Shown here one piece after another: positions 7,627 to 11,721 of a DNA stretch of 64,000 nt. The stretch spans positions 1 through 64,000 of the forward strand of contig JAHCII010000009.1 in NCBI GenBank assembly GCA_026129305.1. The letters run 5' to 3'. The notes under the pieces were generated by a model. That model did not search any database. It worked only from the letters and a program-made list of their open reading frames with translations, and had not been told where the DNA came from. How positions within the stretch are numbered: position 1 is the stretch's first letter; the number at the start of each line of letters is the position of its first letter. The stretch is from Anaerolineales bacterium (lineage in GTDB: Bacteria; Chloroflexota; Anaerolineae; Anaerolineales; UBA11579). The translations under genes were made by a program, and so were the position numbers.

Positions 7627-7947
7627 TCAGGCGGAGTACTTTAGCCCGATGATGCTGGCAATCAGCAAACCCAGAAAGAAGACTTTATTGGGGTTGATGG
7701 CTTCTTTGAATAGCAAAATACCCAACAAACTGGCACCCACTGTGCCAATCCCCACCCATACTGCGTAGGCTACGCTCAAGTCCAGCTTCTTGGTTGCCAG
7801 GGAAAGTAGATAGACACTCAGCGCCAGCGCCCCAATGGTCAGGGCGCTGGGCCAAAATTTGGTGAAGCCATCCGTGTACTTTAGCCCCACGGCCCAGCCG
7901 ACTTCAAACAACCCGGCCAAAATCAAGATGCCCCAAATCGCATTCAT
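7627..7947 (-). CDS. sugE: SMR-family exporter, Gdx/SugE type (guanidinium exporter)
   Basis: Four-helix small multidrug resistance protein of 106 residues. The Gdx/SugE subtype is suggested by GLFEVGWAVGLKYTDGF, with the essential Glu in the first helix. Members of this subtype export guanidinium in exchange for protons. The ATG at 7947 has GGAGGT 4-5 nt upstream; the reading frame stays open further upstream, but that stretch is occupied by a riboswitch and a -10 box. The guanidine-III riboswitch in the leader independently supports a guanidinium substrate. Expression is therefore likely induced by guanidine. Confidence 0.92.
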   Translation of the reverse strand: MNAIWGILILAGLFEVGWAVGLKYTDGFTKFWPSALTIGALALSVYLLSLATKKLDLSVAYAVWVGIGTVGASLLGILLFKEAINPNKVFFLGLLIASIIGLKYSA

Positions 7948-7973
7948 GCACACCTCCAACAAGAAAAGTTTGT

Positions 7974-8014
7974 GCGTCGTCTTATCTTGACCGGGTACGG
8001 CGCGTCTCGTCCGG
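7974..8014 (-). promoter_or_regulatory. Guanidine-III riboswitch (ykkC-III class)
   Basis: Read on the minus strand, the 41 nt begin CCGGACGAG, continue GCGCCGTACCCGGTCA and end AAGACGACGC. This matches, nearly base for base and at the same length, the guanidine-III consensus as I remember it: CCGG paired with a second CCGG, and GCGCCGU paired with the 3' ACGNCGC to close a pseudoknot. The last pairing holds one C-A mismatch. A TATACT -10 box at 8027-8032 puts the transcript start just before the motif. The ribosome site of the exporter begins 16 nt after it. Confidence 0.88.
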
Positions 8015-8026
8015 AGGGGTGAATCC

Positions 8027-8032
8027 AGTATA
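8027..8032 (-). promoter_or_regulatory. -10 box of the exporter transcript
   Basis: TATACT on the minus strand, 12 nt upstream of the riboswitch. No convincing -35 element is visible. Confidence 0.5.
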
Positions 8033-8061
8033 ACCTGCCTTGCTGAGCATAGGCTTAGCAC

Positions 8062-8087
8062 AACGCCCCGGCAAGGGCCGGGGCGTT
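8062..8087 (-). terminator. GC-rich hairpin after the SHMT-GcvT gene
   Basis: Perfect 11-bp stem (AACGCCCCGGC) with a 4-nt loop, 12 nt after the stop codon. It has no following T-run, so it may be a weak terminator or a 3'-end stabiliser. Confidence 0.55.
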
Positions 8088-8099
8088 GATGGTGATTGG

Positions 8100-11000
8100 C
8101 TAGAAGCGGCTGAGTACCTTGGCTTCCGTGGGGCTGGCCCCATGTAGGTCTTTGCCGGCCCGCCCTTGGTAGATCCAGAGCGCACTGCCTTCTTTGGCAT
8201 GTTTCTTGTCCACCCAGGCTTGCCCGGTAAGCGTGCCCTGCTGGTCCAGTGAACAGCTGGTGACTTCCCCGATCTGCTTCCCCTCGGCGTCGGTTACCGG
8301 GTCGCCCTGGTGGGCCATGCGCACCCCGGGCGGGAACTGGAAGCGCAGCACTTCGCGCTTGCGTCTGGCATCTGCCGCCAGGAAGGCGCCGCGCCCAATG
8401 AACCAGGGCTTGTTGGTCTGCACAAAGCTGCGGAACCCCGCATCGGCCGGGCTGAGCTTGTGCGGCCCGGCCAACTCTTGTCCGTAGAGGGGCAGACCAG
8501 CCTCAATGCGTAGCGAGTCGCGCGCCCCCAGGCCGATGGGCTGCAAGCCGTGCTTGGCCCCGGCCTTGAACAGGCTGTGCCACAGCTCCACGGCCTGGTC
8601 GGGATGCACGAAGAGCTCATAGGAGAACTGCTCGCCGGTGTAGCCGGTGCGTGAGACGATCAGGTCCAGCCCAGCCAACTGGGCGCGGGTGACGCCAAAG
8701 CGGCTCAGCTTGCGCAGCCGCGGCTTGTCGGCCGCGGCGGCCAGGGCCAGTAAGATCTTGCGGGCGTTGGGGCCTTGCAGGGCCAGGTCCACGCGCTGGT
8801 CAGCGCCGGCGCTGGCCGCGCGCAGGTTGCGCAGCGCCACGCCGCGGCCGAAGGCCAGCGCATCCGGCTGCCCCCGGTCGATGCACACCTCGCCCGCTCG
8901 CACCGCGTTGAGCCAGGCCCAGTTCTTGTCGTCGTTGCCGGCGTTCACCACCACCAGGTAGTCTTCCTGGTCCAAGCGATAAACCAGCAGGTCATCGATC
9001 ACGCCGCCGTCCGGGTCCAGGAAATGGGTATAGATGGACAACCCCACGGGCAGCCCGGCGATGTCGTTGGCGCACACCGAATCCAGAAAAGCGGCGGCCT
9101 GCGAGCCGCGCGCATCGTAGACGCCCATATGGCTGACGTCAAACAGGCCAGCGGTTTGGCGCACGGCCAGGTGTTCTTCGCGTACGGAGCTGTAGCGCAG
9201 CGGCATATCCCAACCGGCGAAGGGCACCAGCTTGGCGCCCAGGCTTTGATGCACTTCATACAGCCGGGTGCGCTTCAATGGCGGATCGACCGGCGCTTGC
9301 CAGGCAAAATCAGGCAGGGCCTTGGTTGGGGCGGCGGGCTGGCCCACCGCAAAGGGCTTGCGCGCCGGGGCTGGCTTGCCTTTGGGTGCTGCCACCTTGC
9401 GTTTGCTCTCGGTCACCAGCACAGGGCCGGGTGCGGTGCGGGTCAGGTCCTGATCGTCCAGGGTCACAAAACCGTCGGAGAGCGCCCGCAGCCACTCGGC
9501 GGCCAGGCTGAACTTCGCCCTGGGCACGGCCAGCAAGTAATCGTCGCCGCTCAACCGGCTGAGCCCAGCCTTGACTTCGCCCATGGGTGTGGGCAGGCTC
9601 ACCGCCAGGTTGCTCTTGGGGCTGGCGGCTTCAATATCATTAGCCACGGCCACGTTCAGCAGGTTTTGAGCCTGCTGGCCGCTGATTTCCAGGCCGACCC
9701 AGGCGGCTTTGCCGGCCGCTTTGTCGTCCGGATAATAGAAATGGGGATACCCATGCTGGCTGGGCTTGAAGTCGATGCCGGCCGCTTCGGCCAGCTTGCG
9801 CACGCGCAGCTTGGCGTCCCACAACGCGGCAAAGTCCACCTTGGCGCGCTGGCTCAGGCTGCTCTGTGTGCGGTCCCGGTAGGGGCGGCAGGCCAGCAGC
9901 AGGTCAGTGATGATGTTGCCCAGCTCACGGCTGTCTTTTTCACTGAAGCCGCGCTGGGTCACCCAGGAGGTACCTAAGCGCACGCCGGACGGATTGAAGG
10001 CGGAGCGGTCGCCGGGAATCGTGTTGCGGTTGACCACAATACCCGCCAGGTCCAGGATGCGCGCTGCCATGTCTCCCGATAGGGTCGTGCCATCCGGGCC
10101 TACCACGCTCTTGCAGTCCAAGTTGGTCAGATGACTGCGTGTGCCGCCAAAAGGGATGCGAAAACCGCGCTGCTGCAGTTGGTCGCTCAACGCCACACAG
10201 TTGGCGATTACCTGGGTTTGCAGCGCCTGAAATTCCGGGCTTTGGGCGATCTTGAAGGTCAGGGCCAGCCCCGCAAATACATTCACGTGCGGGCCGCCTT
10301 GCTCGCCGGGGAACACGGCCCGGTCGATCTTTTCGGCCAGCTTTTTGTCTGTCGTCAGGATGATGGCGCCGCGCGGGCCGTTGAGCGTCTTATGCGTAGT
10401 CGAAGTGACCACGTGCGCGTGACCCACAGGGGATGGATAGACCCCGGCGGCCACCAAGCCGGCCACATGGGCGATATCGGCGAGCAGGTAGGCGCCCACC
10501 GAGTCGGCGATGCGCCGCAAGGCGGCCCAGTCCGCCGGCCAGGGATAGGATGAGAAGCCGCCAATGATCATGCGTGGCTTGTGCTGCAGGGCCAGTTCAG
10601 CCAGCTCTTCATAATCGATCATTTCTGTGTCAGGGTTGACCGTGTAATGCACGATGTTGTAATACTTGCCGGAGCGATTGGCAGGCGAGCCGTGCGAGAG
10701 GTGGCCGCCGTGCAGCAGGTTCATGCCCATCACCGTATCCCCGGGTTGTACCAGGGCGTGGTACACGGCGTTGTTGGCTGGCGCGCCGGAGAGCGCCTGA
10801 ACATTCACATACAGCTTGTCCGCGCTGACCTCCTGTGTGGCAAAGGTTTCCGCTACCCGCCGGCGCGCCAACGCTTCCAGCAGGTTGGCGTATTCCACGC
10901 CCTTGTAATAGCGCGGGTCAGAATGACGGCGGTAGTGGTTGAGGCGCGCTGGATAATCCATGATCTCGGCCTCCTGCATCCAACGCGTGTCTTCGTCGGG

Positions 11001-11189
11001 ATAGCCTTCGGCGTAAATATTCTGGAAGGCCGAAGAAAGCGCTTCGCGCACGGCCAGGGGCGCGCTGCTTTCGCTGGGGATCAAGATCAGCCGACGGTAT
11101 TGGCGCTCAGCCTCAAGCTGTGTTAGTTCATCAATTTCAGGGGCCAGTTGGGCCAGGGAACCGCGGAAAAGGAAGTCTTTGGCAGGCAT
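8100..11189 (-). CDS. Fused serine hydroxymethyltransferase - glycine cleavage T protein
   Basis: Single 1029-residue protein joining two folate enzymes. Residues about 1-440 are PLP-dependent serine hydroxymethyltransferase, with the lysine motif TTHKTLNGPRG. A linker region of about 130 residues (near 440-570) reads weakly like a folate-binding barrel. Residues about 635-1029 are an aminomethyltransferase with FAGWDMPLRY, GLFDVSHMG and SRTGYTGEQFSYELF. It could turn serine to glycine and use glycine-derived aminomethyl groups, both yielding methylene-THF. The start is the ATG at 11189 because the SHMT fold begins there and a TACAAT box lies 6 nt upstream. The in-frame extension to 11360 overlaps the divergent gene. 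Confidence 0.9.
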   Translation of the reverse strand: MPAKDFLFRGSLAQLAPEIDELTQLEAERQYRRLILIPSESSAPLAVREALSSAFQNIYAEGYPDEDTRWMQEAEIMDYPARLNHYRRHSDPRYYKGVEYANLLEALARRRVAETFATQEVSADKLYVNVQALSGAPANNAVYHALVQPGDTVMGMNLLHGGHLSHGSPANRSGKYYNIVHYTVNPDTEMIDYEELAELALQHKPRMIIGGFSSYPWPADWAALRRIADSVGAYLLADIAHVAGLVAAGVYPSPVGHAHVVTSTTHKTLNGPRGAIILTTDKKLAEKIDRAVFPGEQGGPHVNVFAGLALTFKIAQSPEFQALQTQVIANCVALSDQLQQRGFRIPFGGTRSHLTNLDCKSVVGPDGTTLSGDMAARILDLAGIVVNRNTIPGDRSAFNPSGVRLGTSWVTQRGFSEKDSRELGNIITDLLLACRPYRDRTQSSLSQRAKVDFAALWDAKLRVRKLAEAAGIDFKPSQHGYPHFYYPDDKAAGKAAWVGLEISGQQAQNLLNVAVANDIEAASPKSNLAVSLPTPMGEVKAGLSRLSGDDYLLAVPRAKFSLAAEWLRALSDGFVTLDDQDLTRTAPGPVLVTESKRKVAAPKGKPAPARKPFAVGQPAAPTKALPDFAWQAPVDPPLKRTRLYEVHQSLGAKLVPFAGWDMPLRYSSVREEHLAVRQTAGLFDVSHMGVYDARGSQAAAFLDSVCANDIAGLPVGLSIYTHFLDPDGGVIDDLLVYRLDQEDYLVVVNAGNDDKNWAWLNAVRAGEVCIDRGQPDALAFGRGVALRNLRAASAGADQRVDLALQGPNARKILLALAAAADKPRLRKLSRFGVTRAQLAGLDLIVSRTGYTGEQFSYELFVHPDQAVELWHSLFKAGAKHGLQPIGLGARDSLRIEAGLPLYGQELAGPHKLSPADAGFRSFVQTNKPWFIGRGAFLAADARRKREVLRFQFPPGVRMAHQGDPVTDAEGKQIGEVTSCSLDQQGTLTGQAWVDKKHAKEGSALWIYQGRAGKDLHGASPTEAKVLSRF

Positions 11190-11195
11190 GCCGGA

Positions 11196-11201
11196 ATTGT
11201 A
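11196..11201 (-). promoter_or_regulatory. -10 box for leaderless SHMT-GcvT mRNA
   Basis: TACAAT on the minus strand, separated by 6 nt from the ATG, so transcription should begin at or next to the start codon. No ribosome-binding site is present. Confidence 0.6.
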
Positions 11202-11225
11202 ACGCTTCTCTGCGCCACAGCTTTG

Positions 11226-11231
11226 TATAAT
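11226..11231 (+). promoter_or_regulatory. -10 box of the DUF1801 gene
   Basis: TATAAT 28 nt before the ATG, facing away from the SHMT-GcvT -10 box 25 bp to the left. AAGGAGGT between box and ATG gives a normal leader. Confidence 0.55.
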
Positions 11232-11259
11232 GGAGGGGCTATTTGCAAGGAGGTGCAGT

Positions 11260-11721
11260 ATGGTCAGCAGCAAAGCGGCAACCGTGGAAGAGTATCTCAA
11301 AGAATTGCCTGAAGACCGCCGGGAGGCGCTCTCCGCGGTTCGCCAGGTTATTTTAGACAACCTGCCCGCTGGCTATGAGGAAGGTATGCTCTACGGCATG
11401 ATCGCCTACTACATCCCGCTGAAGGATTTCCCGGATACGTACAACGGCCAGCCGCTTGGCCACGTCGGGTTGGCTTCGCAAAAAAATTATATGGCTTTGT
11501 ATTTGAACAGCGTGTACAGTGATGCAGCGGCGGAGAAGTGGTTCAGGGAACGTTACCAAGCCAGCGGCAAGAAGCTGGATATGGGTAAATCCTGCGTACG
11601 TTTCAAGAAACTTGCTGATCTGCCATTGGAGCTTGTCGGCGAGACTGTGGCAATGACGCCGCCGGAAAAACTCCTGACCTTCTACAAGCAGCCACAGAAA
11701 ACGGCCCGGAGAAAGAAATAA
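11260..11721 (+). CDS. DUF1801-family protein
   Basis: 153-residue cytoplasmic protein of the DUF1801/YdhG-like type. Typical features are the N-terminal TVEEYLKELPEDRREAL helix, YEEGMLYGMIAYYIP near residue 43, and SQKNYMALYLNS near 77. The C-terminus is basic (KTARRKK). The biochemical role of the family is not established. The start is the ATG at 11260 with AAGGAGGT 6 nt upstream. It is divergent from the SHMT-GcvT gene and ends just before an unexplained structured intergenic element. Confidence 0.8.
   Translation: MVSSKAATVEEYLKELPEDRREALSAVRQVILDNLPAGYEEGMLYGMIAYYIPLKDFPDTYNGQPLGHVGLASQKNYMALYLNSVYSDAAAEKWFRERYQASGKKLDMGKSCVRFKKLADLPLELVGETVAMTPPEKLLTFYKQPQKTARRKK

Follow-up and report, generated by a model that had tools for sequence, protein, structure and literature searches.

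The first description of class III guanidine riboswitches placed them in Actinobacteria and delta-Proteobacteria (PMC2864571), and a 2025 review counts 237 representatives, mainly from Actinobacteria (PMC12186494). In the published view, class III RNAs are translational ON switches (PMC5696562; PMC12186494). In the crystal structure of the T. fusca RNA, whose base numbering we use throughout, base 10 joins the triplex layer formed by C15-G38 (PMC5696562). Among the exporters, W16 distinguishes Gdx proteins from Qac-type SMRs (PMC7695847). Here, we describe a Guanidine-III aptamer in front of an SMR gene in a 64,000-nucleotide stretch of DNA, referred to as the window. A Guanidine-III aptamer before a guanidinium exporter is a known class of switch and in itself ordinary; the interest of the locus comes from a corrected picture of a mismatch in the aptamer, from the range of class III, and from a lead to CBU_0592-family membrane proteins.

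The aptamer and its exporter gene

Scanning the whole 64-kb window with cmscan (Rfam 15) identified a Guanidine-III match (RF01763) on the minus strand at 8031-7971, which covers the complete model (1-67) with 54.8 bits (E = 1.3e-8 for the whole window and all families). The aptamer itself comprises 41 nt (8014-7974, minus strand) and is thus shorter than the Rfam match (7971-8031). The initial annotation had assigned a guanidine-III riboswitch to exactly these 41 positions and had proposed a search with the Rfam covariance model, in which the score exceeds the gathering cut-off of the family (36 bits). A locally built covariance model of 25 aptamers, the window's among them, gave 63.3 bits at 7974-8014, and the next-best match in the window reached 11.8 bits. 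This is the single Guanidine-III copy found in the 2.1-Mb genome.

The aptamer is an H-type pseudoknot in which P1 pairs bases 1-4 with 21-24 and P2 pairs bases 12-18 with 35-41. All four P1 pairs are standard, the C20-G29 pair is present, and six of the seven P2 pairs are standard, the sole exception being a C15-A38 mismatch; both helices and the single C-A mismatch had been annotated exactly so. The ligand-contact bases C6, G7, and G17 are all present, and the window keeps all invariant columns of our aptamer alignment (A3), of which it is itself one row. In the 25 aptamers chosen, standard pairs fill 93.7% of the cells that the published pseudoknot defines, and five pairs are changed on both sides, which none of 500 shuffles reached; P1 contributed one two-sided change, from a single row (L049). 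Since these aptamers were hand-picked as class III members, the covariation backs the class more than the window's copy. At the level of sequence, the element is confirmed as a true and well-supported Guanidine-III member and is predicted to bind guanidine.

On the minus strand, the order from 5' to 3' is the end of a GlyA-GcvT gene (stop at 8100), a GC-rich inverted repeat (8061-8088), the hexamer TATACT (8032-8027), the aptamer, the Shine-Dalgarno sequence GGAGG (7957-7953), and the ATG of the SMR gene at 7947, which follows the aptamer by 26 nt on the same strand. The inverted repeat lacks a T run and is absent from the terminator-scan list; it is a possible terminator parting two transcription units. 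TATACT is a probable -10 element, and four genus mates have similar hexamers (TATCCT, TAATCT, and TATTCT) with roughly equal spacing to the aptamer. The annotated -10 box 5' of the aptamer is therefore present as a hexamer, but a consensus scan found no sigma-70-type promoter at threshold before the aptamer, so the promoter is a putative one. The upstream region (8100-11360, minus strand) is a single 1,086-aa frame with two parts, a serine hydroxymethyltransferase (GlyA) and the glycine-cleavage protein GcvT. The GcvT frame of four genus mates (484-492 aa) is open upstream to the locus edge with no stop, so the fusion may be conserved.

The SMR gene (7947-7627 including the stop, minus strand) encodes 106 amino acids and matches Pfam PF00893 with 104.4 bits (cut-off 23.7). 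Its nearest solved structure is Gdx-Clo (6wk5, E = 3.4e-27), with EmrE-type chains far behind (3e-9). All five substrate-site residues of Gdx-Clo (E13, W16, S42, Y59, and W62) are found in the exporter, as E15, W18, S44, Y61, and W64. The best-scoring model is the NCBIfam SugE equivalog NF008512, whose own cut-off of 126 lies above the 109.4 bits obtained, and we thus file the protein by its residues as Gdx subtype and not as SugE. The family match and the five residues agree with the earlier assignment to SMR exporters of the guanidinium subtype, and the gene is classified as a Gdx-type, putative guanidinium exporter.

Within the genus, five of 11 genomes have the aptamer, and the same five have the Gdx ortholog (the window's own and four at 76-79% identity); of the six genomes with neither, three are less than 80% complete. 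The upstream gene end is identical in kind at all five loci. At the more distant SMR paralogs within the genus (L012-L016), no guanidine riboswitch reaches the gathering threshold. A separate match, L002 (34.4 bits), falls short of the RF01763 cut-off and is an ambiguous candidate. With stricter filters, which can miss weak copies, a class-wide search (396 genomes) gave a match above the cut-off only in the window's own genome, and a search of the phylum (251 genomes) gave three genomes with Guanidine-III above the cut-off. We found no earlier report of a guanidine-responsive exporter in the window's lineage in the open-licence literature, and the locus adds a predicted one.

Range of class III and the 15-38 pair

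We surveyed Gdx genes in 84,980 species genomes and examined the best 80 genes listed, ranked by nearness to the window's Gdx gene; genomes near the window may be missing among them. Guanidine-III lies directly upstream of 19 of these 80 genes, Guanidine-II upstream of 14, and neither upstream of 47. The 19 class III carriers come from eight named phyla (Planctomycetota, Cyanobacteriota, Bdellovibrionota, Pseudomonadota, Myxococcota, Actinomycetota, Acidobacteriota, and Verrucomicrobiota), with the proviso that MAG labels can be wrong. Guanidine-III is also present in the control genome, Deinobacterium chartae. Class III is not essentially actinobacterial, and the mainly actinobacterial range assumed in the initial annotation gives way to a wider one among the best 80 Gdx genes listed.

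In an SMR tree of 89 rows and 102 columns, with many forks unresolved, a single branch parts all 24 class III carriers from all 14 class II carriers (one change, versus 11.6 in shuffles), with the 51 rows of neither class uncounted and on both sides. The aptamer class and the exporter lineage thus tended to travel together, and horizontal transfer of a riboswitch-exporter cassette is plausible. Just before Gdx, two Archangium loci (L071 and L080) have weak class III matches that the local model scores at 25.4 and 21.3 bits and that are absent from the Rfam output; these switches are possibly decaying or diverged. At another locus (L118), the class III switch precedes a 383-aa non-SMR frame with a likely resemblance to SpeB/guanidinase, a known partner. 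Not accepted as switches were L099 (29.2 bits), which falls within a long open frame, and three pattern matches from IMG/VR (L146-L148); in the printed flanks of these three, the CCGGACGA half of the aptamer is missing.

We compared positions 15 and 38 at 52 distinct sites that match a regular expression. Left out were 19 duplicate loci (second retrievals of a site) and every locus that the expression did not match (L002, L049, L057, L099, L137, L139, L140, L145, and L146-L148); six of the latter (L049, L057, L137, L139, L140, and L145) exceed the Rfam cut-off. Outside Actinomycetes, the two bases are C-A at 21 of 24 sites and A-A at the other three, and G38 occurs at none; C-A is found at all five sites of the window's genus, at all three of a second family of the same phylum, and at 13 of 16 sites of other phyla (A-A at three). 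The 28 sites of the Actinomycete group comprise C-G (18), U-G (2), C-A (3), U-A (3), and G-C (2), which gives G38 at 20 of 28. Among sites with a third strand of standard length, base 10 is A at C-A sites only (17/17). This pattern suggests that one triplex layer changed in concert, although common descent may also account for it. In the 52-site sample, the aptamers outside Actinomycetes do not take the G38 form known from the crystal structure.

The C-A mismatch is therefore not a defect peculiar to the window copy, as it is the prevailing state outside Actinomycetes. The same prevalence leaves no ground to expect an affinity that differs from that of other class III RNAs, contrary to the earlier suggestion that the mismatch may alter it. 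It also bears on a reading in which the aptamer has decayed or been retuned and has lost guanidine switching. One non-standard P2 pair and a 5' flank shorter than that of the Rfam model would fit such a loss, but the equal mismatch at 21 of 24 sites and the retention of the aptamer core and the exporter residues in five genomes, despite more than 20% divergence of their exporters from that of the window, make it very improbable. Less probable still, to the point of being negligible, is a chance resemblance in an RNA without function. A high GC content and recurring short motifs in the region would fit this, yet the E value over the window and all families, the position before a Gdx gene, and the conservation together with this gene in the genus already refute that reading as far as sequence goes.

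CBU_0592-family membrane proteins linked to class III

In the second family of the window's phylum (f105), class III precedes a CBU_0592-family membrane protein and not an SMR gene. The f105 proteins score 33.6-38.4 bits against NF047864 (cut-off 25), and the class III switch (above the cut-off) and the CBU gene occur in the same three of 11 genomes. Across 197 genomes from the class of Peterkaempfera griseoplana (Actinomycetes), class III matches number 79 and CBU_0592 matches 27 (24 of these 27 above the cut-off), and by coordinates seven CBU genes are directly 3' of a class III match (G689, G759, G760, G789, G795, G814, and G834). The class III matches of G689 and G834 are slightly under the Rfam cut-off; the local model, which had two sequences of their kind among those it was trained on, gives them 49.4 bits.

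All ten class III-linked CBU_0592 sites (L097, L098, and L116 in the second family; L127/L156, L123/L166, L162, and L172-L175 in Actinomycetes) encode ExxW[AS] in the last hydrophobic stretch, versus six of 20 unlinked CBU proteins (Fisher P = 0.0003; rows are not independent, and three of the unlinked matches are partial and end short of this stretch). The ExxW proteins comprise 86-88 aa in three complete ones. Gdx shares E-x-x-W-A with the linked proteins. Homology between CBU_0592 and SMR proteins was rejected as unsupported: hhalign gave a probability of 1.4%, and what aligns is limited to the short ExxWA motif. The six unlinked ExxW loci yielded no convincing class III match, and a search for other guanidine classes before CBU genes, in which 20 of the 30 CBU loci were scanned with Rfam, returned only L162, with class III. 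We found no relatives of the CBU protein in viral contigs and, for the term CBU_0592 alone or with guanidine, no paper in the open-licence literature.

On the basis of the class III survey, CBU_0592 membrane proteins become candidates for guanidinium transport. The ExxW subtype may be a second, unrecognised guanidinium transporter family that is governed by class III in two bacterial groups and has a membrane Glu-Trp pair analogous to E13/W16 of Gdx, a tentative idea to which we give somewhat less credence than doubt. Two Actinomycete CBU_0592 genes (L163 and L123/L166) share the position of an in-frame TGA, which immediately precedes the conserved GFLLLEG and takes the place of the Trp found in most relatives of the subtype; L166 has an apparent frameshift besides. 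These seem to be pseudogenes, sequencing errors, or cases of read-through.

Proposed switching mechanism and relation to known systems

The window riboswitch is very probably a translational ON switch for the Gdx-type guanidinium exporter. The mRNA would start a few nucleotides (about 10 nt) before the aptamer. In the absence of guanidine, aptamer bases would pair with the region from the Shine-Dalgarno sequence to the start codon and hide the ribosome-binding site. With guanidine present, the aptamer would close into the pseudoknot and reclaim the bases paired with the start region, which would open the ribosome-binding site and allow the pump to be produced. This is a specific and testable proposal for the expression platform of the window leader.

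Many leaders show complementarity of the P2 3' strand to the stretch that separates the Shine-Dalgarno sequence from the start codon, although the letters differ: AAGACG with CGUCUU (L005 and L006), GCACC with GGUGC (L044, L079, and L085), GACGACG with CGUCGUC (L054), and ACGAC with GUCGU (L036, L048, and L075). In the window, the 3'-terminal GCACA of the aptamer could pair with UGUGC in the segment that also holds the Shine-Dalgarno sequence (7948-7957, minus strand). We tested such duplexes in 46 SMR leaders and in 58 of 61 Gdx loci without class III, a set of 61 that includes guanidine-II carriers. In 22 leaders, the P2 strand binds its own start region at -9.9 kcal/mol versus -8.4 kcal/mol for swapped regions (P = 0.002, with related leaders not independent), and the start-region duplex of the 58 Gdx genes without class III is at -6.0 kcal/mol. 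Ten of the 22 leaders (L001-L096 set) beat their shuffles at P < 0.05; the Actinomycete group is weaker (5/24). The window's own P2-strand pairing is no better than its shuffles (P = 0.51).

The window has a possible anti-Shine-Dalgarno element (CACCCCTCC, 8013-8021, minus strand), which overlaps C1 and C2 of the aptamer. As RNA, this stretch (CACCCCUCC) matches GGAGGUGUG at eight of nine places with -13.1 kcal/mol, a marginal result against two kinds of shuffles (P = 0.061 and 0.031). The genus mates lack it. As a general platform, the 5' anti-Shine-Dalgarno element was rejected, as only three of 46 leaders have one at P < 0.05, and it is at most special to the window copy. In four genus mates (L003-L006), we found an A/T-rich hairpin directly 3' of the aptamer (e.g., CAAACAAAA ... 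TTTTGTTTG in L003/L004) that the window copy does not have; it is probably part of their expression platform.

Folding the window leader with two different 3' ends hid the Shine-Dalgarno sequence in both cases via different partners, and the predicted ligand-free fold thus depends on the chosen 3' end. The whole leader is no more stable than its shuffles (z = 0.48). When the aptamer was forced in the model, the window leader released its Shine-Dalgarno sequence only in part, and L005 and L006 released theirs to a greater extent. Together, the fold and duplex results suggest that an OFF structure competing with the aptamer is likely, its exact form being less sharply defined.

A different mode of control has been reported for class III in PMC12186494, which cites Richards and Belasco 2021: the ligand-bound pseudoknot near the 5' end would block RNase E scanning and stabilise the mRNA, with start-region pairing secondary. 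The probable transcript start only about 10 nt before the aptamer is where such a block would need it, but the complementarity to start regions across phyla favours translational control, and we consider RNase E blocking unlikely as the principal mechanism. Translational control and an RNase E block can act together.

The window RNA resembles the T. fusca Guanidine-III (ykkC-III) RNA (RF01763, PMC5696562) in length, pseudoknot, conserved core, the bases C6, G7, and G17, and its place before an SMR gene; it differs in carrying C15-A38 where the T. fusca RNA has C15-G38, and its triplex strand reads A10 and C11 instead of G10 and U11. The exporter resembles the guanidinium exporter Gdx-Clo (PDB 6wk5; PMC7695847) in the five substrate-site residues and in an alignment over residues 4-104, whereas it misses the SugE equivalog cut-off and its guanidinium transport is predicted. 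Guanidine-II (mini-ykkC, RF01068) precedes Gdx genes of the same family at 14 of the best 80 loci listed, yet it is another RNA fold, and its Gdx genes lie across a branch of the SMR tree from those that follow class III.
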